Shown: positions 1-45,493, counted from the first letter of the stretch. The stretch: 64,000 nt of DNA from Bacteroidia bacterium (GCA_026003255.1 BPGX01000002.1:450330-514329); one strand, 5' to 3'. Made by a program: numbers and translations. Notes: generated from the letters alone by a model not told the origin.

Positions 1-1
1 T

Positions 2-421
2 ATTCACCGACATTATTTCAAAATACCCCATAAAATTCTGGCGTTCCAGCATCTTTGCCAGACCTTGAATGTTTCTGAAAAGGAATGTTGTTTTGTTTTT
101 GACGATATTTTAGATTTGAGCATTGCAGAACATTGCGGATTGAGAATGTATGTTCAAAAGCCCTCAGCAGTTTTGTTTAATGAATATGTTTTGAAGAATA
201 ATTTAGCAGATTATGTAAGTTTTTCAGATGGATCTAAAAATGCTGTACGAGAAATTACTGAATTGCTTATAGGTGTGTATGATAATTTTGAAGAAGTATT
301 GAAACACCGCATAGAATTTAGTGCGGTTTACAAAAATTACTTATCTTCTAAAAGACAGATTAAAACCGAAAATTTTACTTACATACAAGACAGGATAGAA
401 TCATTTTCAGATAAAGAATAA
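2..421 (+). CDS. HAD-superfamily phosphatase, C-terminal part (5' end outside window)
   Basis: The frame is open to the left edge, so only the last 139 residues of a longer protein are seen. The motif CFVFDDILDL followed by AEHCGLRMYV and then SDGSKNAVREITELLIG matches the late part of HAD phosphatases of the KdsC-like type, where an acidic pair and a glycine/alanine-rich segment close the active site. It lies 2 bases ahead of the heptose-phosphate kinase gene, as expected for a phosphatase acting in the same nucleotide-heptose route for LPS; this link is inferred from position. The catalytic N-terminal DxD motif is outside the window. Confidence 0.7.
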   Translation: MHRHYFKIPHKILAFQHLCQTLNVSEKECCFVFDDILDLSIAEHCGLRMYVQKPSAVLFNEYVLKNNLADYVSFSDGSKNAVREITELLIGVYDNFEEVLKHRIEFSAVYKNYLSSKRQIKTENFTYIQDRIESFSDKE

Positions 422-423
422 GT

Positions 424-1449
424 ATGTTGATTAGAAGCAAAGCGCCTTTGAGAATTGGATTAGCGGGCGGTGGAACAGATGTGTCGCCGTATTCGGATTT
501 ATATGGAGGAGCAGTGTTGAATGCCACCATTAATCTGTATGCTGTTACAACAATAGAAATTACTAACGATAATACAATAGAGTTTATTCTAGGTAATTTT
601 TCTCAAAGAAAAATATATAAAAGTGAAAAAGAATTGCCAGTAGAAAAACCTTTTGAACTAATGAGTGGCGTTTACAATCGCATAGTCAAAATGTTTGATT
701 TACCACCGCTTTCGTTCAAAATGCATTCTTACATTGAAGCACCACAGGGATCTGGATTAGGAACGTCATCTACTCTGGTAGTATCTATTATTGGTGCATT
801 TGCAGAATGGTTAAAATTACCGCTTGGAAAGTATGATATTGCGCATTTAGCATATGAAATAGAACGATTGGATTTGCAAATGCACGGAGGTAAACAAGAT
901 CAATATGCAGCCACTTTTGGAGGGATAAATTTTTTGGAATTTTATGCGAATGATAAAGTGATTGTCAATCCATTAGATATTAAGCCGCACATTAAAAAAG
1001 AATTAGAATTGTGTTTGTTGCTCTATTTTACAGATACTCAAAGGCATTCCTCTGAAATCATCAAAGAACAAATTCAAAATGTTCAATCCAATAAAACAAC
1101 CTCTATTGAAGCAATGCATCATTTGAAAGAACAAGCGTTGTTATTAAAAGATTATTTATTAAAAGAAGAATTAAATAAAATTGGAGAACTTTTACACTTT
1201 GGTTGGATACATAAAAAACAAATGGCAAGCAATATATCCAATACATTAATTGACAACATCTATGAGTCCGCACTCAAAGCAGGTGCTACCGGAGGAAAAA
1301 TATCCGGAGCAGGAGGAGGGGGATTTATGTTTTTTTATTGTCCTAAAAATACAAAGTTAGAAGTGGCTAATGCAGTATTAAAGTTTGGTGGAAAAACTCA
1401 ACCCTTTCAATTTACAACTGAGGGCTTAACGACTTGGACGGTGGATTAG
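424..1449 (+). CDS. hddA: D-glycero-alpha-D-manno-heptose 7-phosphate kinase (GHMP kinase)
   Basis: 341 residues, full length for the family. The N-terminus RSKAPLRIGLAGGGTDV is the substrate-binding start typical of heptose/fucose GHMP kinases. The ATP-binding motif EAPQGSGLGTSSTL is at about residues 105-117, and the C-terminal GHMP motif GGKISGAGGGGFMFFY is near residue 290. The enzyme phosphorylates heptose 7-phosphate at C1 in the cytoplasm on the way to GDP-heptose for LPS or surface glycan. It follows the HAD phosphatase by 2 bases, so the two are probably cotranscribed. The last 38 bases overlap the convergent cupin gene. Confidence 0.85.
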   Translation: MLIRSKAPLRIGLAGGGTDVSPYSDLYGGAVLNATINLYAVTTIEITNDNTIEFILGNFSQRKIYKSEKELPVEKPFELMSGVYNRIVKMFDLPPLSFKMHSYIEAPQGSGLGTSSTLVVSIIGAFAEWLKLPLGKYDIAHLAYEIERLDLQMHGGKQDQYAATFGGINFLEFYANDKVIVNPLDIKPHIKKELELCLLLYFTDTQRHSSEIIKEQIQNVQSNKTTSIEAMHHLKEQALLLKDYLLKEELNKIGELLHFGWIHKKQMASNISNTLIDNIYESALKAGATGGKISGAGGGGFMFFYCPKNTKLEVANAVLKFGGKTQPFQFTTEGLTTWTVD

Positions 1450-2359
1450 GTAATAAAAATTTTTCCTTTAAGGACGAATCAAAATAAGGTGTTTGATGTA
1501 CTTTGTAATTATTCCAATAAATTGGAAAATGTTTTTTCATAAAAGTATCAATATTACGCATACCTATTAAGTACCAAAGTCCTTTCAAAATACCAATTGG
1601 TGTAGTATTGATGGATCGCATACTCATTGCTATGCTATTTTCTAGATACTCAATATGGTGCCAAAATCCTGGAGGCATTATCAAAGCATCAGATGGTTCT
1701 AATATCACTTCATATCCTTGTGCTTCTTTGAGTTTAGGAAACTGTGTTTCTAATTCATTTATTCTTTCAGCATAATTGGAAAAATCTACCCAACTCAATA
1801 CTTCAAAAGGTTTTCTGTATAAAAGATGTTGTTGGTCAAATGGAAACAATAAAAACTTTTTTCTGCCATAAATTTGAACGTGTAAAACAGTACTATAATC
1901 AATATCAAAATGCATATGAGTAATGGACCCCTTTCCCCCTATAAATAACATTGGGGCTTGCTTTACAATAGGAGAAATAACATCGGTTGGATAATCAAAA
2001 TCTTTTAGTAATTCAGGGGCTTGTGTGTAGATATTGAATAAAAACAAACGCCATTTATGTTCAGGATGTTGTAAAATGTTTTGAATGTAATCGCTAAAAG
2101 CCATATAATCGTCGGCAGTATTGACAGGCGTATAAGCGTCACTTTTGACATTGTTGTACAATGGGACTTTTATATCTTTGATTTTATTTTGGAGATATTC
2201 GGGAGTCCACAAATTTTGGGCTTTCCAACGATGTGCAAAATTTTTTAATACAACAGGCGTTTGTTGGCTAATGTAATTGCGAATTTGCTTTTTACCTACG
2301 ACAGTCAATATTTTAGGAGATTTTAAATGCATATAAACAAAATTAATTGGTGAATTCAA
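1412..2359 (-). CDS. cupin-8 / JmjC-like Fe(II) oxygenase family protein
   Basis: 315 residues with the JmjC/cupin_8 fold signature. An HxD pair (H150, D152 in HMHFDID) and a distal histidine (H234 or H235 in PPGFWHHIEYL) form the likely iron triad, with a basic stretch YGRKKFLLFP between them. Such proteins are 2-oxoglutarate/Fe(II) hydroxylases of proteins or RNA; the substrate here is unknown. The first codons lie inside the left inverted repeat of the adjacent IS30 element, so the native start may be M10 (about 2332) and the native promoter has probably been replaced. The 3' end overlaps hddA by 38 bases, tail to tail. Confidence 0.7.
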   Translation of the reverse strand: MNSPINFVYMHLKSPKILTVVGKKQIRNYISQQTPVVLKNFAHRWKAQNLWTPEYLQNKIKDIKVPLYNNVKSDAYTPVNTADDYMAFSDYIQNILQHPEHKWRLFLFNIYTQAPELLKDFDYPTDVISPIVKQAPMLFIGGKGSITHMHFDIDYSTVLHVQIYGRKKFLLFPFDQQHLLYRKPFEVLSWVDFSNYAERINELETQFPKLKEAQGYEVILEPSDALIMPPGFWHHIEYLENSIAMSMRSINTTPIGILKGLWYLIGMRNIDTFMKKHFPIYWNNYKVHQTPYFDSSLKEKFLLPNPPSKSLSPQL

Positions 2360-2379
2360 GTCACAAATGCAACTTTTTG
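2353..2379 (+). repeat. left outer inverted repeat of IS30 copy A
   Basis: AATTCAA, five unmatched bases, then AAATGCAACTTTTT. It pairs with the right repeat at 3694-3718 at 20 of 25 positions. It overlaps the first codons of the cupin gene. Confidence 0.65.
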
Positions 2380-2598
2380 ATGGTGCAAATATAAATAAAA
2401 TTTTAATCTTGGAAAAATAAATAGATGTATGAGTAAATATTTATAGAAAACTCTACTCAAACAAGCAGTTTTTAGAAAAATTGTAAGGGGATCAAAACAA
2501 GAAAAAACACTTTATACGATGAAATGTTAAAGGATATAGAGGAGGGTGTATGAATCTTTTGGGAAGTTGATTATCTTTGGTATAACTTAAAGAAGAAA

Positions 2599-3579
2599 TT
2601 AAGTTGCAGAAAAACAGAGAGCGTTTGATGGAGAGATGTGCGTATAGCACTCTATTGGTGAGAGATAACCCAATCTTTTTCTTGGTCTGTTATTAAGTTT
2701 GTCTTGCACTTCTTGTATCTGTTCATCAGTGATATTTTCAAAAGATAATTTCTTCGGAAAGTATTGTCTAATGAGCCCATTTAGATTTTCATTTGCTCCT
2801 CTTTGCCATGACTGATAAGGTTTTGCAAAATATATTTCTACACCTAATCTTTGACTTATCTTTTCATGTGCAGCAAATTCTTTTCCGTTATCTACTGTAA
2901 TAGTATGTAAATACTCTTTTATTGGTGAAAGTGTGTGTATTACTTTTTCTGATAGTATATGGGCATTTTTACCCGGTAATTTACTTATCCATACCATTCC
3001 CGTTGCTCTATCATTGATGGTAAGCAAACAACCTTTGTGATTTTTTCCTATTATCGTATCCATCTCTAAATCTCCAAATCGTTTTTTGAATTCTACCTCT
3101 TTAGGCCTTAAATCTATATCCTTTCTATTTTTGATAATGCCTCTATTATCGGTTTTATTCCCTCTTTTTTTATACTTTTTACCTTGCCTTCGCAAGTGCT
3201 TGTATAAACTACCTCCTTTCTTTTTATCTTCCCATATATGTTGATATATCCGTTCATGGCTTACTGTAGGACGCCCTTCTTTCTTGAGCCGATTTGCAAT
3301 CTGCTCTGGACTATGATCTTTCGCTAATAATTCCTCTACAACGGCTTTGATTTCTTCTGTAAAATATCGCTTTTTAGGTTTATTTCTCATTCGTGTTTCA
3401 TACTTTCGTTGTGCTAAATCAGATCTATATTCTCCTGTCCGTTTATCACAATTTCGCTTTAACTCTCTACTAATTACCGATTTGTCTTTACCAATAGCTT
3501 CTGCTATTTCTTTGAGTGAATAATTTTTTGTTCTCATTACACTTATTGCGTATCTTTGCTCTTTGGTGAGATGTTTCAT
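2599..3579 (-). CDS. IS30-family transposase
   Basis: 326 residues, normal length. The N-terminal helix-turn-helix (YSLKEIAEAIGKDKSVISREL, residues 20-40) is the IS30-type DNA-binding domain, followed by a second HTH-like segment (HSPEQIANRLKKEG, about 89-102). The DDE catalytic triad is complete: D174 (LEMDTIIG), D230 (TVDNGKEF) and E264 (RGANENLNGLIRQYFPK). No frameshift is present, so this copy may be active. The 5' half is repeated nearly unchanged in copy B at 7365-7820. Confidence 0.92.
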   Translation of the reverse strand: MKHLTKEQRYAISVMRTKNYSLKEIAEAIGKDKSVISRELKRNCDKRTGEYRSDLAQRKYETRMRNKPKKRYFTEEIKAVVEELLAKDHSPEQIANRLKKEGRPTVSHERIYQHIWEDKKKGGSLYKHLRRQGKKYKKRGNKTDNRGIIKNRKDIDLRPKEVEFKKRFGDLEMDTIIGKNHKGCLLTINDRATGMVWISKLPGKNAHILSEKVIHTLSPIKEYLHTITVDNGKEFAAHEKISQRLGVEIYFAKPYQSWQRGANENLNGLIRQYFPKKLSFENITDEQIQEVQDKLNNRPRKRLGYLSPIECYTHISPSNALCFSAT

Positions 3580-3693
3580 TTTGCAACTTTTTTAGGAAGG
3601 AAAGGGACAAAAATAATATCTCTCCATCAGGGTAAAGAGGAGAAAGAATATTTTCTTTCTCCCTTTCCTTGAAAAATATAATTTTTTTACTCC

Positions 3694-3718
3694 AAAAGTT
3701 GCATTTATTAGTTGAATT
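3694..3718 (-). repeat. right outer inverted repeat of IS30 copy A
   Basis: Read on the minus strand it gives AATTCAA-CTAAT-AAATGCAACTTTT, the partner of the left repeat. The same sequence ends the truncated copy at 7935-7959. Confidence 0.65.
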
Positions 3719-3724
3719 TAGTAT

Positions 3725-3929
3725 ATTAAATAAGTGGAATAATCTCACACCCATACAAAGAAATGAATGGATTTGCTGGATAACTATTGTGAAAAAAGAA
3801 GAAACAAGAAAAGAACACATTCGCAGAATGTTAGAAGATTTGAAATCAGGTAAAAAAACACCTTGTTGTTGGCCAGGATGTCCGCATAGAAGACCCAATG
3901 CGAAAAAGTGGTTGAAAGGAAAAAATTGA
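3725..3929 (+). pseudogene. 5'-truncated YdeI/OmpD-associated family gene
   Basis: The frame running from the IS30 right end to 3929 encodes about 67 residues with TPIQRNEWICWI, KKEETRKEHIRRMLEDL and the end CCWPGCPHRRPNAKKWLKG. This is recognisable as the C-terminal tail of YdeI/OmpD-associated (bacteriocin-protection-like) proteins. The rest of the gene is missing: the reading frame enters directly from insertion-sequence DNA, and no N-terminal half is seen on the far side of the element. The element therefore probably caused a deletion or rearrangement as well as an insertion. Not expected to be functional. Confidence 0.65.
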
Positions 3930-3935
3930 CAATCT

Positions 3936-4301
3936 TTATTTACTTGATTTTCCAATAATATTTTTTCTGTGTTCTAATCCCCATTTTACCATTACATCTA
4001 ACACTTTACGAAACGATTTTCCAGATGAAGTAAGTTCATATTCAACAACAGGTGGTATATTGCTAATCACTTTTCTCTTTACAATACCGTTTATCTCTAA
4101 TTCCTTTAATTCTTTAGAAAGCATCCTTGGATTGATATTTGGTATTTCACGAATAAGTTCATTGAATCTTTTCTTTCCATACAACAATGTGCCAATAATG
4201 GGTAACTTCCATTTTCCACTAATAACATTCAAAGTATCCTTTACTGCCAAAACATATTCACCTGAACACTTCTTTACTTCTTTCAAATCTTTTTTACTCA
4301 T
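3936..4301 (-). CDS. HxlR-family (DUF24) winged-helix transcriptional regulator
   Basis: 121 residues. The HxlR core is present: a conserved N-terminal cysteine (KKCSGEYVL, residue 12), LNVISGKWKLPIIGTLLYGKKRFNELIREIPNIN and the wing segment MLSKELKELEINGIVKRKV, ending VEYELTSSGKSF. Regulators of this family often sense thiol-reactive quinones or aldehydes through the N-terminal cysteine (for example YodB, CatR and HypR in Bacillus). It is divergent from the DoxX gene, and the space between them holds a perfect operator-like palindrome at 4333-4352. Autorepression plus control of the doxX-frnE genes is therefore likely, by inference. Confidence 0.85.
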   Translation of the reverse strand: MSKKDLKEVKKCSGEYVLAVKDTLNVISGKWKLPIIGTLLYGKKRFNELIREIPNINPRMLSKELKELEINGIVKRKVISNIPPVVEYELTSSGKSFRKVLDVMVKWGLEHRKNIIGKSSK

Positions 4302-4330
4302 AATTTTTAATTTTAATTTTAATTTTAATT
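4302..4330. repeat. AATTTT hexamer tandem repeat in the hxlR leader
   Basis: About four copies of a 6-bp AT unit lie directly before the hxlR start codon and next to the operator palindrome. Changes in copy number would change the spacing between operator/promoter and start codon. Confidence 0.6.
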
Positions 4331-4332
4331 AA

Positions 4333-4352
4333 CACTATACAAATGTATAGTG
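4333..4352. promoter_or_regulatory. putative HxlR operator palindrome
   Basis: CACTATAC-AAAT-GTATAGTG is a perfect 8-bp inverted repeat, followed at 4353-4358 by a further half-site CTATAC. It lies in the divergent hxlR-doxX promoter region, where HxlR dimers would bind. Binding by this regulator is inferred. Confidence 0.6.
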
Positions 4353-4425
4353 CTATACTTTTTAATAATACTTGCAAAAGCGAAGCAAATATATGTAAAT
4401 TTGCACCAACAAAAAAATCAAAACT

Positions 4426-4830
4426 ATGGAACAAAAAAACAAAAACTTGAATGTCTTGTTGTGGATTGCTCAAGTTGCATTAGCCGCTATTTTTTTAATG
4501 GCAGGCATTATGAAATCTACAACTCCCATTAACGAACTCTCTCAAAAATTAAATTGGGTAAGTGAAGACACCAAATTTCTTGTAAGATTTATTGGTATTT
4601 CTGAATTGTTAGGGGCTATCGGATTAATTTTACCATCTTTACTTAGAATTAAACCTATTCTAACACCTCTTGCTGCACTCGGTTTTTTAATTATTATGAT
4701 TTCGGCAATTATATTTCACATCGTAAGAGGTGAGTACAATGTATTACCTATTAATTTTCTTTTTGGTGCGATAGCATTGTTTATTGCATGGGGAAGATAT
4801 AAAAAAGTTCCAATTCAACCCAAATCTTAA
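4426..4830 (+). CDS. DoxX-family membrane protein
   Basis: 134 residues with four hydrophobic segments (about 9-26, 45-64, 72-92, 100-117), the DoxX layout. Characteristic pieces are WIAQVALAAIFLMAGIMKST near the N-terminus and FIGISELLGAIGLILPSL. DoxX proteins are small inner-membrane proteins linked to quinone or thiol redox stress; in Bacillus the DoxX protein CatD is paired with an extradiol dioxygenase under an HxlR regulator. The same three classes (HxlR, DoxX, extradiol dioxygenase) occur here in a row. The start follows an AT-rich leader and agrees with the family N-terminus. Confidence 0.8.
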   Translation: MEQKNKNLNVLLWIAQVALAAIFLMAGIMKSTTPINELSQKLNWVSEDTKFLVRFIGISELLGAIGLILPSLLRIKPILTPLAALGFLIIMISAIIFHIVRGEYNVLPINFLFGAIALFIAWGRYKKVPIQPKS

Positions 4831-4832
4831 TT

Positions 4833-4964
4833 ATGAGTGAAAATAAAAAGAATACCATTGAAATGTTCTACACTCTTACTTGCCCAAATTGTAAGATATT
4901 AGAAAAAATGCTTAAAGAAGTACTACATATTAAAGATAATATATTCATTCATCATATCCGATGA
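4833..4964 (+). CDS. 43-residue CxxC thioredoxin-like mini-protein
   Basis: A short frame beginning 2 bases after the doxX stop. It encodes IEMFYTLTCPNCKILEKM: a beta strand, a CPNC redox motif and the first helix of a thioredoxin fold, and then ends after 43 residues. Its stop overlaps the start of the next gene by 4 bases (ATGA), which points to translational coupling and so to real expression. A full thioredoxin fold needs about 80 residues, so it is either a minimal redox peptide or a truncated glutaredoxin-like gene. Confidence 0.5.
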   Translation: MSENKKNTIEMFYTLTCPNCKILEKMLKEVLHIKDNIFIHHIR

Positions 4965-5854
4965 ATCGCAGAGAATTTATGCAGTCATTATTAAGTTTAG
5001 CGGCTGTTGGAACTTTATCAAGTTTCAAAAGCATTACTGATCTTTTTCCTTCACAAAGTAAAAAGTTACCAGTAATATTCACATCACATGGTAATCCTTT
5101 TGATATTATAAAATCAAGAGAAGAAAGACCATTTTGGAAAAAACTTTATGAATTAGGTATTGAGTTACAAAATAAACACGAAATCAAAGCTGCATTAATT
5201 GTTTCTGCTCATTGGTGTACAAAAGGCACTTATGTAAATGTTTCTCCACATCCAAAACAAATCTACGATTACTACGGATTTCCTGAAGATTATTACAAGG
5301 TTGTTTACAAAGCAAAAGGTTCGCCAGAATATGCTTATGAAGTAAAAAAATTGGCTCAAGAAGTAAAAGAAACCACTGATTGGGGACTTGACCATGGTGC
5401 TTGGCCTATGCTTATGCATTTATTTCCAGATGGTTATATACCCGTCTTTCAAATGAGTATTCATTATTATGCTTCTCCGCAATATCATTACAACCTTGCT
5501 AAACAATTGAAATCATTAAGAGAAAAAGGTGTGTTAATCATTGGAAGTGGTGCTTTAATACATAATCTTCAACTTGCAGGAAAGAAAATGTATGAAAATG
5601 ATATGACACCTTATGGTTGGGAATTTGAATACGATGAATGGATTAAAAAACAAATTGAATCCAGAAACATTGATAATATTATCAATTATGAAAAAAGTCA
5701 TCCATTAGGAAAATTAGCCGCACCAACACCCGATCATTTTGTACCCGTTCTTTACACACTTGGTTTGATAGATAGCAAAGATGAATTACAATTCTTTTAT
5801 GAAGGTCATCCTACTCTTCCCGCTTTTAGTGAAAGAAGTTTTATATTTGCTTAA
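4961..5854 (+). CDS. ygiD: YgiD/DODA-type class III extradiol dioxygenase
   Basis: 297 residues. The N-terminus MNRREFMQSLLSLAAVGTLS resembles a twin-arginine or lipoprotein-like signal, so export is possible. The body has the metal-site pattern of the 4,5-DOPA extradiol dioxygenase family: FTSHGNP, VSAHWCT, TDWGLDHGAWPML and TPDHFVPVLY. Family members open catechol-type rings with O2 using Fe(II) or Zn at the histidines. The start codon overlaps the CxxC mini-gene. With HxlR and DoxX upstream, a role against catechols or quinones is inferred; the substrate is unknown. Confidence 0.82.
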   Translation: MNRREFMQSLLSLAAVGTLSSFKSITDLFPSQSKKLPVIFTSHGNPFDIIKSREERPFWKKLYELGIELQNKHEIKAALIVSAHWCTKGTYVNVSPHPKQIYDYYGFPEDYYKVVYKAKGSPEYAYEVKKLAQEVKETTDWGLDHGAWPMLMHLFPDGYIPVFQMSIHYYASPQYHYNLAKQLKSLREKGVLIIGSGALIHNLQLAGKKMYENDMTPYGWEFEYDEWIKKQIESRNIDNIINYEKSHPLGKLAAPTPDHFVPVLYTLGLIDSKDELQFFYEGHPTLPAFSERSFIFA

Positions 5855-5875
5855 AAATATCTTTGCTTTAGCAAT

Positions 5876-6715
5876 ATGATTTCTTTTCCAAATTCAAAAT
5901 ATCTTCTCTTAATTGGCACTTTATTTTTTCATTTAAATTTCTTTGCTCAAAAAAAATTAAAATCATCTCAACAAAAATTTCAAAAACAAAACACTATGGA
6001 AAATAAAATGAAAATAGAAGTATGGAGCGATGTTGTTTGTCCATTCTGCTATATTGGAAAAAGAAAACTTGATTTAATATTACAAAACTTTGAACACAAA
6101 AATAAAATTCAAATTGAATGGAAAAGTTTTCAATTAGATCCCGAAATGATTACTCAACCAAATAAAAATATCAATCAATATCTTTCTGAAAGAAAAGGTA
6201 TTCCTTTGAAAAAAGCACAAGAACTAAATGAATATGTTTCAAATATGGCTAAAGAAGTAGGATTGCATTACAATTTAGATAAAGCCATACCAGCAAATAC
6301 TTTGAAAGCTCATCAACTTATTCATTACGCTAAAAAATTTGGAAAACAAACAGAAGCAGAAGAATTACTATTTCAATCTTATTTTATTGATGGAAAAAAT
6401 ATTGATGATATCAATACTTTGTTAGAAGTTGCAAAATCTTTAGGTTTGAATACTAATGAATTAAAAGACATATTAGAAAATAACAAACTTGTTAACGAAG
6501 TTCAACAAGATATTTATGAAGCCAAACAATTAGGTATAAGCGGCGTACCATTTTTCTTATTCAATGATAAATATGCTATTTCAGGAGCACAAGATATTAA
6601 AGTGTTTTCACACACATTAGATAAAGCATATAAAGATTGGGAAAAAGAAAATCAATCAACTACAATAGAAACTATCAAAGGTAAAGTATGCACACCAGAT
6701 GGCGAATGCAAATAA
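5876..6715 (+). CDS. DsbA-family oxidoreductase of the FrnE type
   Basis: 279 residues from the first ATG, with a hydrophobic N-terminal segment (YLLLIGTLFFHLNFFA) that looks like a signal peptide; an internal ATG at 5996 would give the usual cytoplasmic FrnE length of about 239. The redox motif VVCPFCYIGKRKL follows the first strand, and GISGVPFFLFNDKYAISGAQ carries the cis-proline loop (GVP) near the C-terminus. FrnE proteins are disulfide isomerase-like enzymes of oxidative stress response. It lies 21 bases after ygiD in the same cassette, so cotranscription is likely. Confidence 0.85.
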   Translation: MISFPNSKYLLLIGTLFFHLNFFAQKKLKSSQQKFQKQNTMENKMKIEVWSDVVCPFCYIGKRKLDLILQNFEHKNKIQIEWKSFQLDPEMITQPNKNINQYLSERKGIPLKKAQELNEYVSNMAKEVGLHYNLDKAIPANTLKAHQLIHYAKKFGKQTEAEELLFQSYFIDGKNIDDINTLLEVAKSLGLNTNELKDILENNKLVNEVQQDIYEAKQLGISGVPFFLFNDKYAISGAQDIKVFSHTLDKAYKDWEKENQSTTIETIKGKVCTPDGECK

Positions 6716-6728
6716 AATTATTATTATT

Positions 6729-7301
6729 ATGAACTTTAAAATTAATCAACCTCTCAATACGAAAGAGTACATTGAACTTTTTCAACAAAATGCAAATGGC
6801 ATCAGAAAAGATTACAGTGATGAATATATTCCCTATTTGCAACTCAATTACAAAAGATTTGAAAGAGTTATCAAAAATTATGACCCATCAAATGAAGTGA
6901 TTAATGCTTTTGCAAAATTATCATTTCAACCAAAACTATATATTATTACCGAGCCATGGTGTGGAGATGCCGCACAATCTGTTCCTGTATTTATCAAAAT
7001 ATGGGAAAAATTAAATTACTCAGACATCACTTTTATTTTAAGAGATAAAAATCCTGATATAATGGATTTGTATCTCACTGATGGTAATAAGAGAAGTATT
7101 CCTATTGCTATTTTTGAAAAACCAGATGGTTCTGAATGGTTTCATTGGGGACCAAGACCTCAGAAAGCACAGATAATTTTTGATGAAGTAAAAAAACAAA
7201 GTGATCGTCCTGAGCATGCTTACGAAGCATTACAAAAATTCTACAACGAAGATAAAGGAAAAAGCATTGAAGAAGAATTGATGAAAAAATTGGTGGAATA
7301 A
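6729..7301 (+). CDS. thioredoxin-fold protein with WCGDA motif
   Basis: 190 residues from the ATG at 6729, a more likely start than the upstream GTG/TTG-type codons inside the frnE end. The motif ITEPWCGDAAQSVPVF replaces the second CxxC cysteine with alanine, so only one catalytic cysteine remains; RSIPIAIF carries the cis-proline. This single-cysteine thioredoxin family is common in Bacteroidota and its reaction is not established. It is the last gene of the redox cassette, followed by the IS30 fragment. Confidence 0.75.
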   Translation: MNFKINQPLNTKEYIELFQQNANGIRKDYSDEYIPYLQLNYKRFERVIKNYDPSNEVINAFAKLSFQPKLYIITEPWCGDAAQSVPVFIKIWEKLNYSDITFILRDKNPDIMDLYLTDGNKRSIPIAIFEKPDGSEWFHWGPRPQKAQIIFDEVKKQSDRPEHAYEALQKFYNEDKGKSIEEELMKKLVE

Positions 7302-7364
7302 ATTTTTTGTTGTGAATGTAAAAATCACTATCTAAGCTTTTTTCAACTAAAATAGCTGTCTTTT

Positions 7365-7820
7365 TTAATTCAAATGTTCATCTCTTTTATCTGTTTTATT
7401 CCCACTTTTTTTATACTTTTTACCTTGCCTTCGCAAGTGCTTGTATAAACTACCTCCTTTCTTTTTATCTTCCCATATATGTTGATATATCCGTTCATGG
7501 CTTACTGTAGGACGCCCTTCTTTCTTGAGCCGATTTGCAATCTGCTCTGGACTATGATCTTTCGCTAATAATTCCTCTACAACGGCTTTGATTTCTTCTG
7601 TAAAATATCGCTTTTTAGGTTTATTTCTCATTCGTGTTTCATACTTTCGTTGTGCTAAATCAGATCTATATTCTCCTGTCCGTTTATCACAATTTCGCTT
7701 TAACTCTCTACTAATTACCGATTTGTCTTTACCAATAGCTTCTGCTATTTCTTTGAGTGAATAATTTTTTGTTCTCATTACACTTATTGCGTATCTTTGC
7801 TCTTTGGTGAGATGTTTCAT
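7365..7820 (-). pseudogene. IS30 transposase fragment (N-terminal 140 residues)
   Basis: It matches residues 1-145 of the copy A transposase (both helix-turn-helix segments), with one change in KKRGNKTD to KKSGNKTD, then runs into unrelated DNA and stops. D174, D230 and E264 are missing, so no catalysis is possible; the fragment could still bind the IS ends. Confidence 0.8.
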
Positions 7821-7965
7821 TTTGCAACTTTTTTAGGAAGGAAAGGGACAAAAATAATATCTCTCCATCAGGGTAAAGAGGAGAAAGAATATTTTCTTTC
7901 TCCCTTTCCTTGAAAAATATAATTTTTTTACTCCAAAAGTTGCATTTATTAGTTGAATTTAGTAT
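7385..7965 (-). mobile_element. truncated IS30-family element, copy B
   Basis: The right 580 bases of copy A are present again in the same orientation, nearly identical from about 7395 to 7965, including the upstream hairpin and the right inverted repeat. The left part (3' half of the transposase) is absent, so the copy is immobile on its own. Its right end stops about 30 bases from the tmRNA 3' end. Confidence 0.8.
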
Positions 7966-7995
7966 TACATTTGAATTCCTAAGTTTATAAAAATG

Positions 7996-8349
7996 TGGAC
8001 CCGCTCCGAATCGAACGGAGGTCCAAGTAAGCAATGAGTAAGTTTTCTACAGGTTTAGTGTTCACTTTCGCATTCGGTACAAAGCAAGCAGAACACCGCT
8101 TATACTTTGTACCTATCCGCTGGTAGTCATCTTTCGTAGCGGAGTCCGAAAGATGCTCTGTCTCTTTCCGACGCCTTACACCTTTCGCCAGACAGAAGGG
8201 CTAAAGGGAAGACGGGCTGCAGCTATTAGGCAGCCAAAGCGAAGTTAGATTCGCCATTTAAGTTTTGGAGACGAGATTTAAGAGCATTGTCCCCATTGCT
8301 CTACCTGCTTACTTACCCATTGTTCTTACTGTCGAAACCTTTCGGGCCC
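7996..8349 (-). ncRNA. ssrA: transfer-messenger RNA (tmRNA)
   Basis: The 5' end GGGCCCGAAAGGTTTCGAC and the 3' tRNA-like end (T arm GGTTCGATTC-like, then CGGGTCC) form a 7-bp acceptor stem with one G-U pair, followed by discriminator A; CCA is not encoded. The tag frame runs from 8255 to 8226: GESNFALAA followed by TAA TAG. It rescues stalled ribosomes with SmpB and tags the product for Clp proteolysis. A promoter lies upstream (8376-8406), which leaves a leader of about 20 bases to be trimmed by RNase P. The IS30 fragment begins about 30 bases beyond the 3' end, and no clear terminator is seen between them. Confidence 0.95.
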
Positions 8350-8406: not shown

Positions 8407-8765
8407 GAAAATACATTTCATTGTAATTTTTACACAACTTTTACTGATTATTTGTCATGTTTTTTTGAAAATACAGAATTTATCCCAGATTATATTAGGA
8501 ATAAAGGAATTTGAGTTTATTATAAATTCAAACCTCTTGTATTTTAACCACAAAGGACACCAAGAAAACAAACAAAGTACACAAAGTCCAGATACATTCT
8601 AAAAGTAAGAAATACTTTGAGTTTTTGTGAAAAACTTTGTTTTATCTGTGTTTAATAAAATCAACTAATTATTTTTAAAACCAAATAGGTAATAACATTT
8701 TTATTTAAGTATCAATGAAATTGAGTAACGTAAACAGTATTTAATTTCCATTGCATAATTTTGTT
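8407..8765. other. gene-free stretch with a degenerate intergenic repeat
   Basis: No coding frame is supported. At 8541-8660 short units AACCACAAAGG, ACACAAAG and, in the opposite sense, CTTTG and ATCTGTG form a weak dispersed repeat resembling the unit array at 31262-31301. Confidence 0.4.
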
Positions 8766-15839: not shown

Positions 15840-18130
15840 TATATTTTGACTCCCAATAAGGTTACATCATCTGTTTGATAGCCCTCTCCACGCCATTGAA
15901 GATAAAATGTTTCTAATGCAGTATATTGCTCTTCAATGGCTTTGTTTACCAAACTACTTAACAACTCCTTGAATTGCTTTGTACCTATCTTCTTTCCTTT
16001 TTCTCCTCCGAACTGGTCGGCATAACCATCGGTGGTGAGATATAAAAGTGCGTTTTCGTTGAGTTCTATTTGTTGTGATGAAAATGGTTTTGCTTCTTCA
16101 TACTTTCCAATTGGTTGTTTGTCTGGTTTGATTTCAATGAGTATGTTGTTTTCTGCAATATACAAAGGACGATTGGCTCCGCTGTATTGAATTTGCTTTC
16201 GGTTTTGTTTGTTGATTCTTACCAGACATACATCCATTCCGTCTCTGATATTTTCATCACTTCCGCTGAGTTTTTCTATGACGATTTCTCTTACTCTGTT
16301 TAGAATCTGATTCGTTTCTGTAAGTTTTTCTTCCAATACCGCTCTGGTAAGTGCATTGCTGCACACTACGCTCACCATAGCGCCGGGAACACCATGTCCC
16401 GTGCAGTCGCAGGCAGCAACAAAGATGTATTGATCTGTTTCTTCCAGCCAGTAAAAGTCACCGGCTACAATGTCTTTGGGTAAATAAAGAATAAAACTAT
16501 CCGGTAAGAGTTGTTCCCATTTGTTGGGATGTGGTAAAATGGCTTGTTGTATTCTTTTAGCGTAAGTGATGCTATCCAGAATGTCTTTATTTTTTTCTTC
16601 CACGATTTTCTTCTGGGCGGCGATTTCATCTCTGGCTTGTTCGATGATTTTCTTTTGACGTTTGGTAGTTTGCAGGGATTTGAAGACGATACCGAGGATG
16701 ATGAGAATGGCAAGAGATACAGAGCCGGTGAGGTAAAGGTACAATTGTTGTTGTTTTTCTTTGGCTTCTCTTCTTAACAGTTCCTGTTCGTGTTTGGCTT
16801 GTTCTTCGGCTTGCTTTTTTTCAAAGAGATATTGCATTTCTTTGGTTGCAAGGGCTTTTTTGTTTTCTTCACTGTTCACGCTGTCTTTGTGCATTACGTG
16901 TTTTTTGTATGCTTCCAGTGCTTCTTTGTAACGGCCGGTTTGAGCATAAAGAGTGTAGAGAATAAGATAGTTTTCAACTAAATGATAGTGGTTATAAATT
17001 GATTCACTTATGTTTTTGGCTTGAATCAAAAGCGTTTCTGCAAGTTTATATTTTTTTTGAATTAAGTATATAGATGCCATGGTAGATAGACATATTGCTT
17101 TACTGCGAATTTGCCCTATTTCTGAATTGAGATAATAGGATTTATTTAAATATTCTAATGCTTTTGAATGGTTTTTTATAGCGTCTGTATGATTACCATA
17201 ACTAATCATAGAATCTCCAATTGTTTTGTATAATATGCCAATATTTGTGAGAGTTTTGCCTAATTTCTTTTTATCTTGTAGTTTTTCATTTATTTTCAAT
17301 GCTTTAAAGTAATAATTTAGGGAAAGTTTTTTTTGGTTTAATTGGTCATAACAATTTCCTATATTGCAATAGTTGTTACTTATTCCGGCGAGATTATTAA
17401 TTTGCTCATTTGTTTTTAAGGCATTGAAAAAGTATTTTAAACTTTTATTGTATTGTTCTTGTTCATAAAATACAATTCCAATATTTTCAAGACAAGATGC
17501 TTCTACCTCTTTGTAGTTTATTTTTTGACTAATTTTCAAAGATTTAAATAAAAACTCTAATGCTTTATCATATTTAGCAAGTTCAATATATAAAGTGGCT
17601 ATATTATAGTCAACCGCACATTGATCGTACATGTTGCCAATCTTTTCGTATTGTTGTTTAGTAAAATTAAACATTTCAAGAGCTTTTACAAGATCTCCGA
17701 GATTCCAATGTATAGTGGCGATGTTTGCTATAACACCAGCGTATAATCTTTCTTTTTTTGGTACTTTGCCATCAATTTGTTGTAGATTTCTGACTACATT
17801 ATTAAATATTTCCAATGCTTTTTGATATTCACCAATAAGAAAAAAAGACCAACCTATTTGTGTGACACTATATAGCTCTCGAATAGGATCTCTTATTTGT
17901 TTAGCTTTGGATATACTTTGATTAAAAAAGTAATTGGCAGAATCAATATTAGAATAATGATATTCTAAACCAAGGTTATAGTAACAATTATACACATTGG
18001 TATCTGCTTCTGTTCCGCTTTTGCTTTCCCATTTTTTCAGTTCAGTGAAAAGGGAATCTAATTTCTTTTGGTTTTGGGAAAAACCAAATTTTAAAATAAT
18101 CAATAATACTATGAAACTTCTCCTTATCAT
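15839..18130 (-). CDS. TPR protein with SpoIIE/PP2C-type phosphatase domain
   Basis: 763 residues from the ATG at 18130 (MIRRSFIVLLIILKFGFSQ, signal peptide); a further start at 18154 adds 8 residues. TPR repeats fill about residues 40-430. A membrane segment follows (LYLTGSVSLAILIILGIVF), then a coiled coil (KKIIEQARDEIAAQKKIVEEKNKDI), then a SpoIIE domain with LPKDIVAGDFYWLEE, ACDCTGHGVPGAMVS and LTTDGYADQFGG, the metal-binding aspartates of PP2C. The likely role is a membrane phosphatase answering a periplasmic TPR sensor, as in partner-switching. A close paralog is at 43115-45493 on the other strand. Confidence 0.85.
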   Translation of the reverse strand: MIRRSFIVLLIILKFGFSQNQKKLDSLFTELKKWESKSGTEADTNVYNCYYNLGLEYHYSNIDSANYFFNQSISKAKQIRDPIRELYSVTQIGWSFFLIGEYQKALEIFNNVVRNLQQIDGKVPKKERLYAGVIANIATIHWNLGDLVKALEMFNFTKQQYEKIGNMYDQCAVDYNIATLYIELAKYDKALEFLFKSLKISQKINYKEVEASCLENIGIVFYEQEQYNKSLKYFFNALKTNEQINNLAGISNNYCNIGNCYDQLNQKKLSLNYYFKALKINEKLQDKKKLGKTLTNIGILYKTIGDSMISYGNHTDAIKNHSKALEYLNKSYYLNSEIGQIRSKAICLSTMASIYLIQKKYKLAETLLIQAKNISESIYNHYHLVENYLILYTLYAQTGRYKEALEAYKKHVMHKDSVNSEENKKALATKEMQYLFEKKQAEEQAKHEQELLRREAKEKQQQLYLYLTGSVSLAILIILGIVFKSLQTTKRQKKIIEQARDEIAAQKKIVEEKNKDILDSITYAKRIQQAILPHPNKWEQLLPDSFILYLPKDIVAGDFYWLEETDQYIFVAACDCTGHGVPGAMVSVVCSNALTRAVLEEKLTETNQILNRVREIVIEKLSGSDENIRDGMDVCLVRINKQNRKQIQYSGANRPLYIAENNILIEIKPDKQPIGKYEEAKPFSSQQIELNENALLYLTTDGYADQFGGEKGKKIGTKQFKELLSSLVNKAIEEQYTALETFYLQWRGEGYQTDDVTLLGVKI

Positions 18131-43114: not shown

Positions 43115-45493
43115 ATGAAAAAAGCCGTATTTCTCATCTTATTCTTTTGCTCATTCCAGAACCTCTTTTCCCAAAACCAAATGAAATTGGACTCCCTTCT
43201 CACTGCCCTGAAAAAATGGGAAGGCAAAAGCGGAACAGAAGCCGATACCAATGTGTATAATTGTTATTACAAGATTGGAGTACAATTTCAAGAATCTGAT
43301 CCCGATACAGCTATTTATTTACTGAACAGAAGCATCGAAAGGGCAAAAAAACTCAATGACAAAATTCGTGAAGCAGAAAGTGTAAGACAACAAGGTTGGT
43401 GTTATTATGTAAAAGGGGATTATGAGGAAGCATTAAAAAAATATGAAGAGAGCATGCAAACCCTTCCGGAGCAGGTAGAGGGGAAAGATAGAATTCGTAA
43501 GCAAAAGGTATATGCCGCCAATCTCGGGAACATTGGGGTTGTTTATGATGATCAAGGCAATTATTCCAGGGCCTTAGAGTATTATTTCAGGGCATTGAAA
43601 ATATGTGAAGAAATCGGAAACAAGCAACGTCAGGCATCCTGTCTCGGAAACATTGGGGGTGTTTATCATGAGCAAGGCAATTACTCCAAAGCATTGGAGT
43701 ATTATTTTAAGGCATCGAAAATCAATGAAGAAATCGGAAACAAGCAACGTCAGGCCAACAATCTCGGAAACATTGGGGGTGTTTATCATGAGCAAGGCAA
43801 TTATTCCAAAGCATTGGAGTATTATTTCAAGGCATTGAAAATCAATGAAGAAATCGGAAACAAGCGAAGTCAGGCCAACAATCTCGGAAACATTGGGGGT
43901 GTTTATCATGACCAAGGCAATTATTCCAAAGCATTGGAGTATTATTTTAAGGCATTGAAAATAAATGAAGAAATCGGGAACAAGAAAGGTCAGGCCAACA
44001 ATCTCGGAAACATTGGGGGTGTTTATCATGAGCAAGGCAATTATTCCAAAGCATTGGAGTATTATTTCAAGGCATTGAAAATCAATGAAGAAATCGGAAA
44101 CAAGCGAAGTCAGGCCAACAATCTCGGAAACATTGGGGGTGTTTATCATGACCAAGGCAATTATTCCAAAGCATTGGAGTATTATTTTAAGGCATTGAAA
44201 ATAAATGAAGAAATCGGGAACAAGAAAGGTCAGGCCATCAATCTCGGAAACATTGGGGCATTATACATCCAACAAAAAAAATACAAAGAAGCGAAACCAT
44301 ATCTAAAACAAGCTATTTTAATCGGAGAAGAATTGCATATTATTTATCATCTGGAAGGTTTTTATAATTCTTTATCCGACCTTTATATCCAAACCGGTCG
44401 TTACAAGGAAGCGCTGGAGGCATACAAAAAACATGTTATGCACAAAGACAGTGTCAATAGCGAACAAAATCGTAAAGCCCTTGCCACCAAGGAAATCCAA
44501 TACCTGTTTGAAAAAAAACAAGCCGAAGAACAAGCCAAACACGAACAGGAAATTTTAAAAAGAGAAGCCAAAGAAAAACAACAACAATTGTATCTTTACC
44601 TTGCTGGCTCTATATCCCTTGCTATTCTTATCATTCTCGGTATCGTCTTTAAATCCCTGCAATCTACCAAACGTCAAAAGAAAATCATCGAACAAGCCAG
44701 AGATGAAATAGCCGTCCAGAAGAAAATCGTGGAAGAAAAGAATAAGGATATTCTGGACAGTATCAATTACGCCAAATGCATTCAGGAAGCCATTTTACCG
44801 CATCCCAACAAATGGAAACAGCTTTTACCGGAAAGCTTTATTTTATATTTACCAAAAGACATAGTAGCAGGTGACTTTTACTGGTTGGAAGAAACAGACC
44901 AATACATCTATGTCGCTGCCTGCGATTGTACAGGACACGGAGTACCCGGCGCAATGGTAAGCGTAGTATGTAGTAATGCTTTAACTCGTGCCGTATTGGA
45001 AGAAAAACTCATTGAAACCAATCAAATTTTAGACAGAGTAAGAGAAATCGTCATAGAAAAACTCAGCGGAAGTGATGAGAAAATCAGGGACGGAATGGAT
45101 GTGTGTTTGGTAAGAATCAACAAACAAAACCGAAAGCAAATCCAATATAGCGGAGCCAATCGTCCTTTGTATATTGCAGAGAACAACACACTCAACGAAA
45201 TCAAAGCCGATAAACAACCCATTGGAAAATACGAAGAAGCGATGCCATTTACAGCACAACAAATTGAGTTATCAGAAAACATTGTTTTATATCTCACCAC
45301 GGATGGCTATGCTGACCAGTTTGGAGGAGAAAAAGGAAAGAAGATAGGCACAAAGCAATTCAAGGAGTTGTTAAGTAGTTTGGTAAACAAAGCCATTGAA
45401 GAACAAAAGAAAACATTAGAAGCATTTTATATTCAATGGCGTGGAGAGGGCTATCAAACAGATGATGTGACAATGTTGGGGTTGAGGGTTTGA
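43115..45493 (+). CDS. TPR protein with SpoIIE/PP2C phosphatase domain, paralog of the 15.8 kb gene
   Basis: 792 residues: signal peptide (VFLILFFCSFQNLFSQ), then TPR repeats. Six consecutive 40-residue units of the form LGNIGGVYHEQGNYSKALEY are almost identical, which is unusual. They are followed by more divergent TPRs, a membrane segment (LAGSISLAILIILGIVF), a coiled coil and a SpoIIE domain with DIVAGDFYWLEE, CDCTGHGVPGAM and LTTDGYADQFGG. The C-terminal half is nearly the same as in the 15839-18130 protein. Likely a membrane phosphatase whose TPR sensor has been expanded by recent duplication. Confidence 0.88.
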   Translation: MKKAVFLILFFCSFQNLFSQNQMKLDSLLTALKKWEGKSGTEADTNVYNCYYKIGVQFQESDPDTAIYLLNRSIERAKKLNDKIREAESVRQQGWCYYVKGDYEEALKKYEESMQTLPEQVEGKDRIRKQKVYAANLGNIGVVYDDQGNYSRALEYYFRALKICEEIGNKQRQASCLGNIGGVYHEQGNYSKALEYYFKASKINEEIGNKQRQANNLGNIGGVYHEQGNYSKALEYYFKALKINEEIGNKRSQANNLGNIGGVYHDQGNYSKALEYYFKALKINEEIGNKKGQANNLGNIGGVYHEQGNYSKALEYYFKALKINEEIGNKRSQANNLGNIGGVYHDQGNYSKALEYYFKALKINEEIGNKKGQAINLGNIGALYIQQKKYKEAKPYLKQAILIGEELHIIYHLEGFYNSLSDLYIQTGRYKEALEAYKKHVMHKDSVNSEQNRKALATKEIQYLFEKKQAEEQAKHEQEILKREAKEKQQQLYLYLAGSISLAILIILGIVFKSLQSTKRQKKIIEQARDEIAVQKKIVEEKNKDILDSINYAKCIQEAILPHPNKWKQLLPESFILYLPKDIVAGDFYWLEETDQYIYVAACDCTGHGVPGAMVSVVCSNALTRAVLEEKLIETNQILDRVREIVIEKLSGSDEKIRDGMDVCLVRINKQNRKQIQYSGANRPLYIAENNTLNEIKADKQPIGKYEEAMPFTAQQIELSENIVLYLTTDGYADQFGGEKGKKIGTKQFKELLSSLVNKAIEEQKKTLEAFYIQWRGEGYQTDDVTMLGLRV
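43531..44270 (+). repeat. tandem 120-bp TPR-coding repeats with a 240-bp exact duplication
   Basis: About six 120-bp units in frame. Bases 43801-44040 recur at 44041-44280 with identity up to one base near position 44238 (caggccaac becomes caggccatc) and the unit end. Units alternate between two versions (caagcgaagt and caagaaaggt), so the last event copied a pair. Confidence 0.9.

Follow-up and report, generated by a model that had tools for sequence, protein, structure and literature searches.

A putative HxlR-controlled electrophile-defence operon of a Bacteroidia bacterium and its relatives in integron-like cassettes

We have analysed a 64,000-nucleotide stretch of the genome of a Bacteroidia bacterium (GCA_026003255.1, BPGX01000002.1:450330-514329), hereafter the window, and propose that a gene cluster near its start is an HxlR-repressed operon that probably serves in defence against quinones, catechols or similar electrophiles. 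The relatives of this operon lead to a broader proposal. Judging from sequence comparison, it is quite likely that another type of integron exists in around half of the Bacteroidota genomes sampled, made up of arrays of attC-like sites of ~134 bp and of tyrosine recombinases that neighbour IntI but lack its insertion. Some cassettes of this system (HxlR-NmrA-DoxX-YgiD) would be self-regulated and would have crossed order and phylum borders recently. The window operon comprises the following features.

3936-4301, minus strand: HxlR-type repressor, with Cys12 within a KKCSGEYVLA segment (PF01638, 98.3 bits, E 2e-28)
4333-4352: operator CACTATAC-AAAT-GTATAGTG, identified by recurrence of its core upstream of HxlR genes
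4339-4346, minus strand: TACATTTG, Bacteroidota -7-like element for hxlR, within the operator (read from the sequence)
4396-4403, plus strand: TAAATTTG, putative -7-like element of the doxX operon (read from the sequence)
4426-4830, plus strand: DoxX_2 membrane protein (PF13564, 81.7 bits, E 5e-23)
4833-4964, plus strand: 43-residue thioredoxin-like CxxC remnant, its stop overlapping the YgiD start (PF13098, below cut-off)
4961-5854, plus strand: YgiD/DODA-type extradiol dioxygenase (LigB) with a Tat-like N-terminus, RR...LLSLAAVGTL (PF02900, E 5e-28)
5876-6715, plus strand: FrnE-type DsbA with a signal-like N-terminus, a CPFC motif and a C-terminal CTPDGEC (PF01323, 150.8 bits, E 5e-44)
6699-7301, plus strand: Thioredoxin_9 protein with a single cysteine, EPWCGDAAQ (PF14595, 103.3 bits, E 1e-29)

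An earlier, sequence-only reading had described this locus as a cassette of partly overlapping HxlR, DoxX, CxxC, extradiol dioxygenase, FrnE and thioredoxin genes. Pfam matches bear out the HxlR, DoxX, dioxygenase, FrnE and thioredoxin genes, and the gene overlaps at 4961-4964 and 6699-6715 are real. A functional CxxC gene did not hold up: the frame encodes a 43-residue fragment whose best Pfam match reaches 19.6 bits against a cut-off of 27. Since a relative of the same genus (L139) has at this position, upstream of YgiD, only MFYTLTCPNYK followed by a stop, the frame reads as a gene in decay. The window dioxygenase aligns with Escherichia coli YgiD (2pw6; E 1e-46), keeping the SHGxP-like, SAHW, HN and TPxH motifs, and most YgiD relatives begin with M-x-R-[RK]-x-F, after which comes a hydrophobic stretch. 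This N-terminus suggests that the dioxygenase may be exported, in which it would differ from E. coli YgiD. The FrnE protein matches that of Deinococcus (5cnw; E 4.5e-43), and its C-terminal cysteine pair, CTPDGEC, which lies outside the part aligned to 5cnw, is shared with loci L074 and L132. The best relative of the Thioredoxin_9 protein within the order is 38% identical.

The palindrome at 4333-4352 is exact (8-4-8). As the window holds seven 8-4-8 palindromes, symmetry alone proves little, and the proof is carried by recurrence upstream of HxlR genes elsewhere. Among 28 regions compared, 18 (17 of 27 besides the window) have the core CTATAC-N4-GTATAG without mismatch upstream of HxlR; these regions are not independent, L052 and L139 representing one locus and several more being near-identical to one another. 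When the exact 20-mer was scanned blind over 61 genomes of the family, it was present only in the window's genome, at the operon and at its repeat on contig C16, and in G076 and G079, and every site lay beside an HxlR gene. In both of the latter genomes it lies upstream of an HxlR gene that diverges from a nitroreductase gene, behind which G076 also has DoxX. L139 also keeps the operator (L139:6511-6540), followed there by genes for YceI, a CDGSH protein, another DoxX and YgiD. The operator proposed earlier from the window alone is thus real by its recurrence and by the blind scan. In the window the HxlR gene is divergent from DoxX-YgiD-FrnE-Thioredoxin_9, and the operator covers the promoter-like element of hxlR and lies upstream of that of doxX. 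The Bacteroidota -7 element has the consensus TAnnTTTG; because the palindrome, on the minus strand, contains the -7-like TACATTTG, hxlR is likely to repress itself. The regulator has structural matches to YtcD, YybR, HxlR and YodB, and Cys12 is retained in most close homologues.

A scan of 84,980 species with the window YgiD protein yielded 80 loci, in which a recurrent order is apparent: HxlR on the opposite strand precedes DoxX and YgiD, often with an NmrA-type reductase in between, and glutathione peroxidase (GPx) or FrnE follows at some loci. Hosts include Balneola, Cyclobacterium, Maribacter, Lewinella, Phaeodactylibacter, Cyclobacteriaceae, Sediminibacterium and others. HxlR-DoxX-YgiD therefore recurs in many Bacteroidota and Balneolota, and the possibility that the neighbourhood is conserved nowhere else falls away. 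DoxX and YgiD are the most constant partners; one locus (L274) combines a nitroreductase with DoxX. The longer order HxlR-DoxX-YgiD-FrnE stood in part: FrnE lies near YgiD at five loci (L074, L090, L115, L129 and L132), and the Thioredoxin_9 gene was found in none of the HxlR-DoxX-YgiD-type loci compared. Neither FrnE nor Thioredoxin_9 served as a marker of other cassettes, since the best FrnE matches in 395 genomes and four Thioredoxin_9 matches stand alone. Plasmid collections contained only relatives below 60%. The YgiD of Sediminibacterium (L132:8001-8885) is a chimera of two paralogues adjacent in Balneola (L070), with the junction near 8409-8510.

Relatives of the operon (HxlR-NmrA-DoxX-YgiD with GPx or FrnE) are cassettes of 3.5-4 kb bounded by 134-bp attC-like hairpins. 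Balneola, Balneolaceae UBA3186, Cyclobacterium lianum, Maribacter 4G9 and a Bacteroidetes metagenome-assembled genome share the unit ending in GPx at 99.7-100% identity over 3.4-3.7 kb, and Sediminibacterium has it at 99% over 2.4 kb, in each case with unrelated flanks. Between Balneola, Cyclobacterium, Maribacter and Balneolaceae a block of 3.66 kb reaches 99.8-100% identity, so that near-identical copies occur in different orders and phyla. In L070, L071, L072 and L132 the shared block starts with GTTAGCGGC, and in L070-L073 its right end reads ...CAAAACG|TT (G|AT in L072). This right end is a hairpin-forming 134-bp element starting with GCCGCTAAC, which complements the nine bases at the start of the unit, an arrangement as in integron cassettes and their attC sites. 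A second, 7.1-kb DoxX-YgiD unit (L102, L103, L105 and L106), ~98-99% identical among Flavobacterium, Gramella and Flagellimonas, likewise has attC-like sites at its bounds, and its start GTTAGCGGT matches its own site ACCGCTAAC. Typical cassettes are promoterless, whereas the HxlR-NmrA-DoxX-YgiD units bring their own regulator and operator.

How widespread are these sites? A covariance model built from eight of them detects attC-like sites in 138 of 296 Bacteroidota genomes and 82 of 140 genera (E<=1e-6), and nothing in a small control of 49 kb of E. coli plus five other loci. The sites form arrays wherever examined closely, on the same strand in 18 of the first 20 genomes. Stem covariation was 0.556 against 0.166 after shuffling in one alignment (A3) and 0.536 against 0.183 in another (A4), with slid stems at or below 0.11, in alignments that had been fitted to the structure beforehand. 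A test free of any structure compares the first nine bases of each unit with the R'' box of its own downstream site, counting agreement at 8 or more of 9 positions. In the first set 52 of 58 pairs agree (47 of 53 once five pairs counted twice in the overlapping L102 and L248 are removed), against 4.3 by shuffling; in an independent set of nine genomes, of which eight are complete or almost complete, 38 of 53 agree against 5.1 by shuffling (at most 13 in 5000 shuffles). Agreement between R'' and R' within one array site is at chance level, as expected if the units are shuffled. Past the first nine bases, the unit starts in L252-L270 have a near-invariant A at position 11 and a preference for TA at positions 15-16. 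The loops of the hairpins (for example L071:3615-3748) contain AGCAC motifs repeated ~20 bp apart and are conserved in sequence, unlike usual attC loops, which are variable.

The arrays also have recombinases. Twenty tyrosine recombinases lie within ~10 kb of an array, all at its 5' side when the coordinates are read by eye; one further case, on contig C27 of the window's genome, is ambiguous. These proteins lack the ~40-residue insertion present in four true IntI proteins. A quick tree of 23 proteins places them together in a single group (support 86), next to IntI (99) and separate from Xer. Their closest NCBIfam model is 'site-specific tyrosine recombinase/integron integrase', so the recombinases are already known as proteins; apparently their arrays are not. 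No such recombinase was found near the sites in five genomes (G355, G218, G220, G115 and G312). Among 16 mostly complete genomes that have sites, a single one gave a true IntI above cut-off, located at a great distance from its array. Another, in contig C26 of the window's assembly, was set aside as suspected contamination, given that the adjacent gene encodes a tail of the YPNPFNP type found in Ignavibacteria. Compared with integrons (IntI, attI, attC), the arrays share same-strand hairpin sites, cassettes whose start is complementary to the site of the same cassette and a recombinase at the 5' side; they differ in the recombinase without the IntI-specific insertion and in ~134-bp sites with a relaxed GTT core. 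For Bacteroidetes, IntegronFinder 2.0 (PMC9024848) names only In0 elements as known earlier and reports a single complete integron, in Salinibacter, and integron surveys define IntI by its insertion (PMC9668308). We found no description of these arrays in the open-access literature, subscription papers and preprints lying outside that scope, and the integron-like cassette system across the phylum is apparently undescribed.

The window operon itself has a different setting, flanked as follows.

2349-3722, minus strand: full copy of an IS30-family element, transposase at 2599-3579 (NF033563, 304.7 bits; ends set from six genome copies)
3725-3929, plus strand: C-terminal gene fragment cut by the insertion sequence, its frame exiting the element, with a weak YdeI/OmdA match (PF13376, E 0.053)
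7382-7963, minus strand: IS30 copy 2, a remnant with the right end only (584 bp, 99.5% identical to 3141-3724)
7993-8349, minus strand: tmRNA gene ssrA (RF00023, 137.7 bits; ARAGORN)

Elsewhere the window contains an inverted 1.1-kb duplicate (15852-16951 and 44381-45480, 87% identity) and tandem repeats of ~120 bp at 43504-44258. The position of the unit beside ssrA agrees with the sequence-only reading, and the IS30 bracket described there is half right: copy 1 is full, copy 2 is a 584-bp remnant with its transposase cut off, and the unit is located between one whole and one broken IS30, not between a clean pair. Contig C16 of the same assembly repeats window positions 1-7413 with one mismatch and ends inside IS30 copy 2. 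The window starts directly after an assembly gap; upstream of the repeat C16 continues, and C2 has there this gap and a partial IS30. The discrepancy may be a scaffold or strain conflict, and the repeat may be a real duplication or a redundant contig.

How the operon came to lie here can be considered in two ways, neither of which we favour. An IS30 composite transposon carrying the operon seems unlikely. The outer ends of both copies are present, the same 3 bp, ATT, precede copy 1 and follow copy 2, whereas the two flanks of copy 1 itself differ (ATT/ATA), and other IS30 copies in the genome have 3-bp duplications at two of four sites. Nevertheless, copy 2 is truncated internally, lacking one end and half the transposase, agreement over 3 bp is weak in AT-rich DNA, and the only second genomic location is on C16, where the flank is repeated too. 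It is still more improbable that the unit is an ancient integron-type cassette whose attC-like site was lost on the arrival of the IS30 copies alongside. In keeping with such a history, cassette-borne loci are among the best matches for HxlR, YgiD and FrnE (74% to L074), and the window's genome (G000) has arrays of 134-bp attC-like sites at C2:238579-253619 (L237), on C19 (L245), on C27 (L246) and on C18, adjacent to insertion-less tyrosine recombinases (that on C2 split, that on C19 intact). Yet the C2 array is 200 kb from the operon, which lies outside any array, and a search with filters off found no attC-like site or site remnant in the unit or at its ends (best nearby match 10.6 bits, E 0.34). 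The YgiD tree joins the window to L139, of the same genus (support 98), and not to the cassette-borne clade, leaving a cassette origin unsupported. A horizontal origin argued from identity alone (74% to distant taxa, 65% within the genus) was rejected because of the same grouping. Given the missing site and this tree, the link between operon and cassettes appears to be one of family and not of descent of the window copy.

What might the operon do? We interpret it as an electrophile-defence unit in which an HxlR dimer would repress transcription in both directions until modification of its N-terminal cysteine releases repression. DoxX and the probably exported YgiD-type dioxygenase would then handle an aromatic electrophile by ring cleavage, while FrnE and thioredoxin would repair or shield thiols. 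The earlier comparison with CatR/YodB control of catDE in Bacillus subtilis survives without a functional CxxC protein, the operator and the redox company of related loci (NmrA, glutathione peroxidase, nitroreductase with DoxX) fitting such a regulon. Common to the B. subtilis regulon (catDE, azoR1, yodC) and the window operon are an HxlR-type regulator, DoxX beside an extradiol dioxygenase and, in loci related to the window's, nitro/quinone reductases. The window operon has, in place of CatE, a dioxygenase of the YgiD/LigB type that bears a Tat-like leader, it includes FrnE and thioredoxin in addition, and its redox sensing is only putative. The HxlR-NmrA-DoxX-YgiD-GPx loci of Bacteroidota (L070-L075, L081-L087, L132) share regulator, DoxX, YgiD and operator with the window, and differ in the NmrA reductase, the frequent GPx and, in several cases, the bounding attC-like sites. 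A rather unlikely alternative is a general thiol/disulfide stress operon, with FrnE and thioredoxin as main effectors, DoxX as membrane support and LigB in a minor role or with another substrate. YodB-type HxlR proteins respond to diamide, which agrees with this alternative, as do the three thiol-related features within the unit and FrnE at five related loci; set against it, no thiol protein is kept as constantly as DoxX and YgiD, the Thioredoxin_9 gene has no counterpart at the other loci and the CxxC gene is in decay. Electrophile defence has points that weigh against it as well: the function of DoxX is generic, HxlR proteins sense other signals too, and the Thioredoxin_9 gene and the window's gene order occur in this genome only.

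The operon would offer a regulator-operator pair for electrophile stress in Bacteroidota that is open to testing. The arrays that carry its relatives may have wider consequences. Integrons have been described as nearly absent from Bacteroidota, against the frequency of sites reported here. Should the system be confirmed, a major path of gene exchange in a very abundant phylum would have gone unnoticed, since detection relies on a domain that its recombinase does not have.

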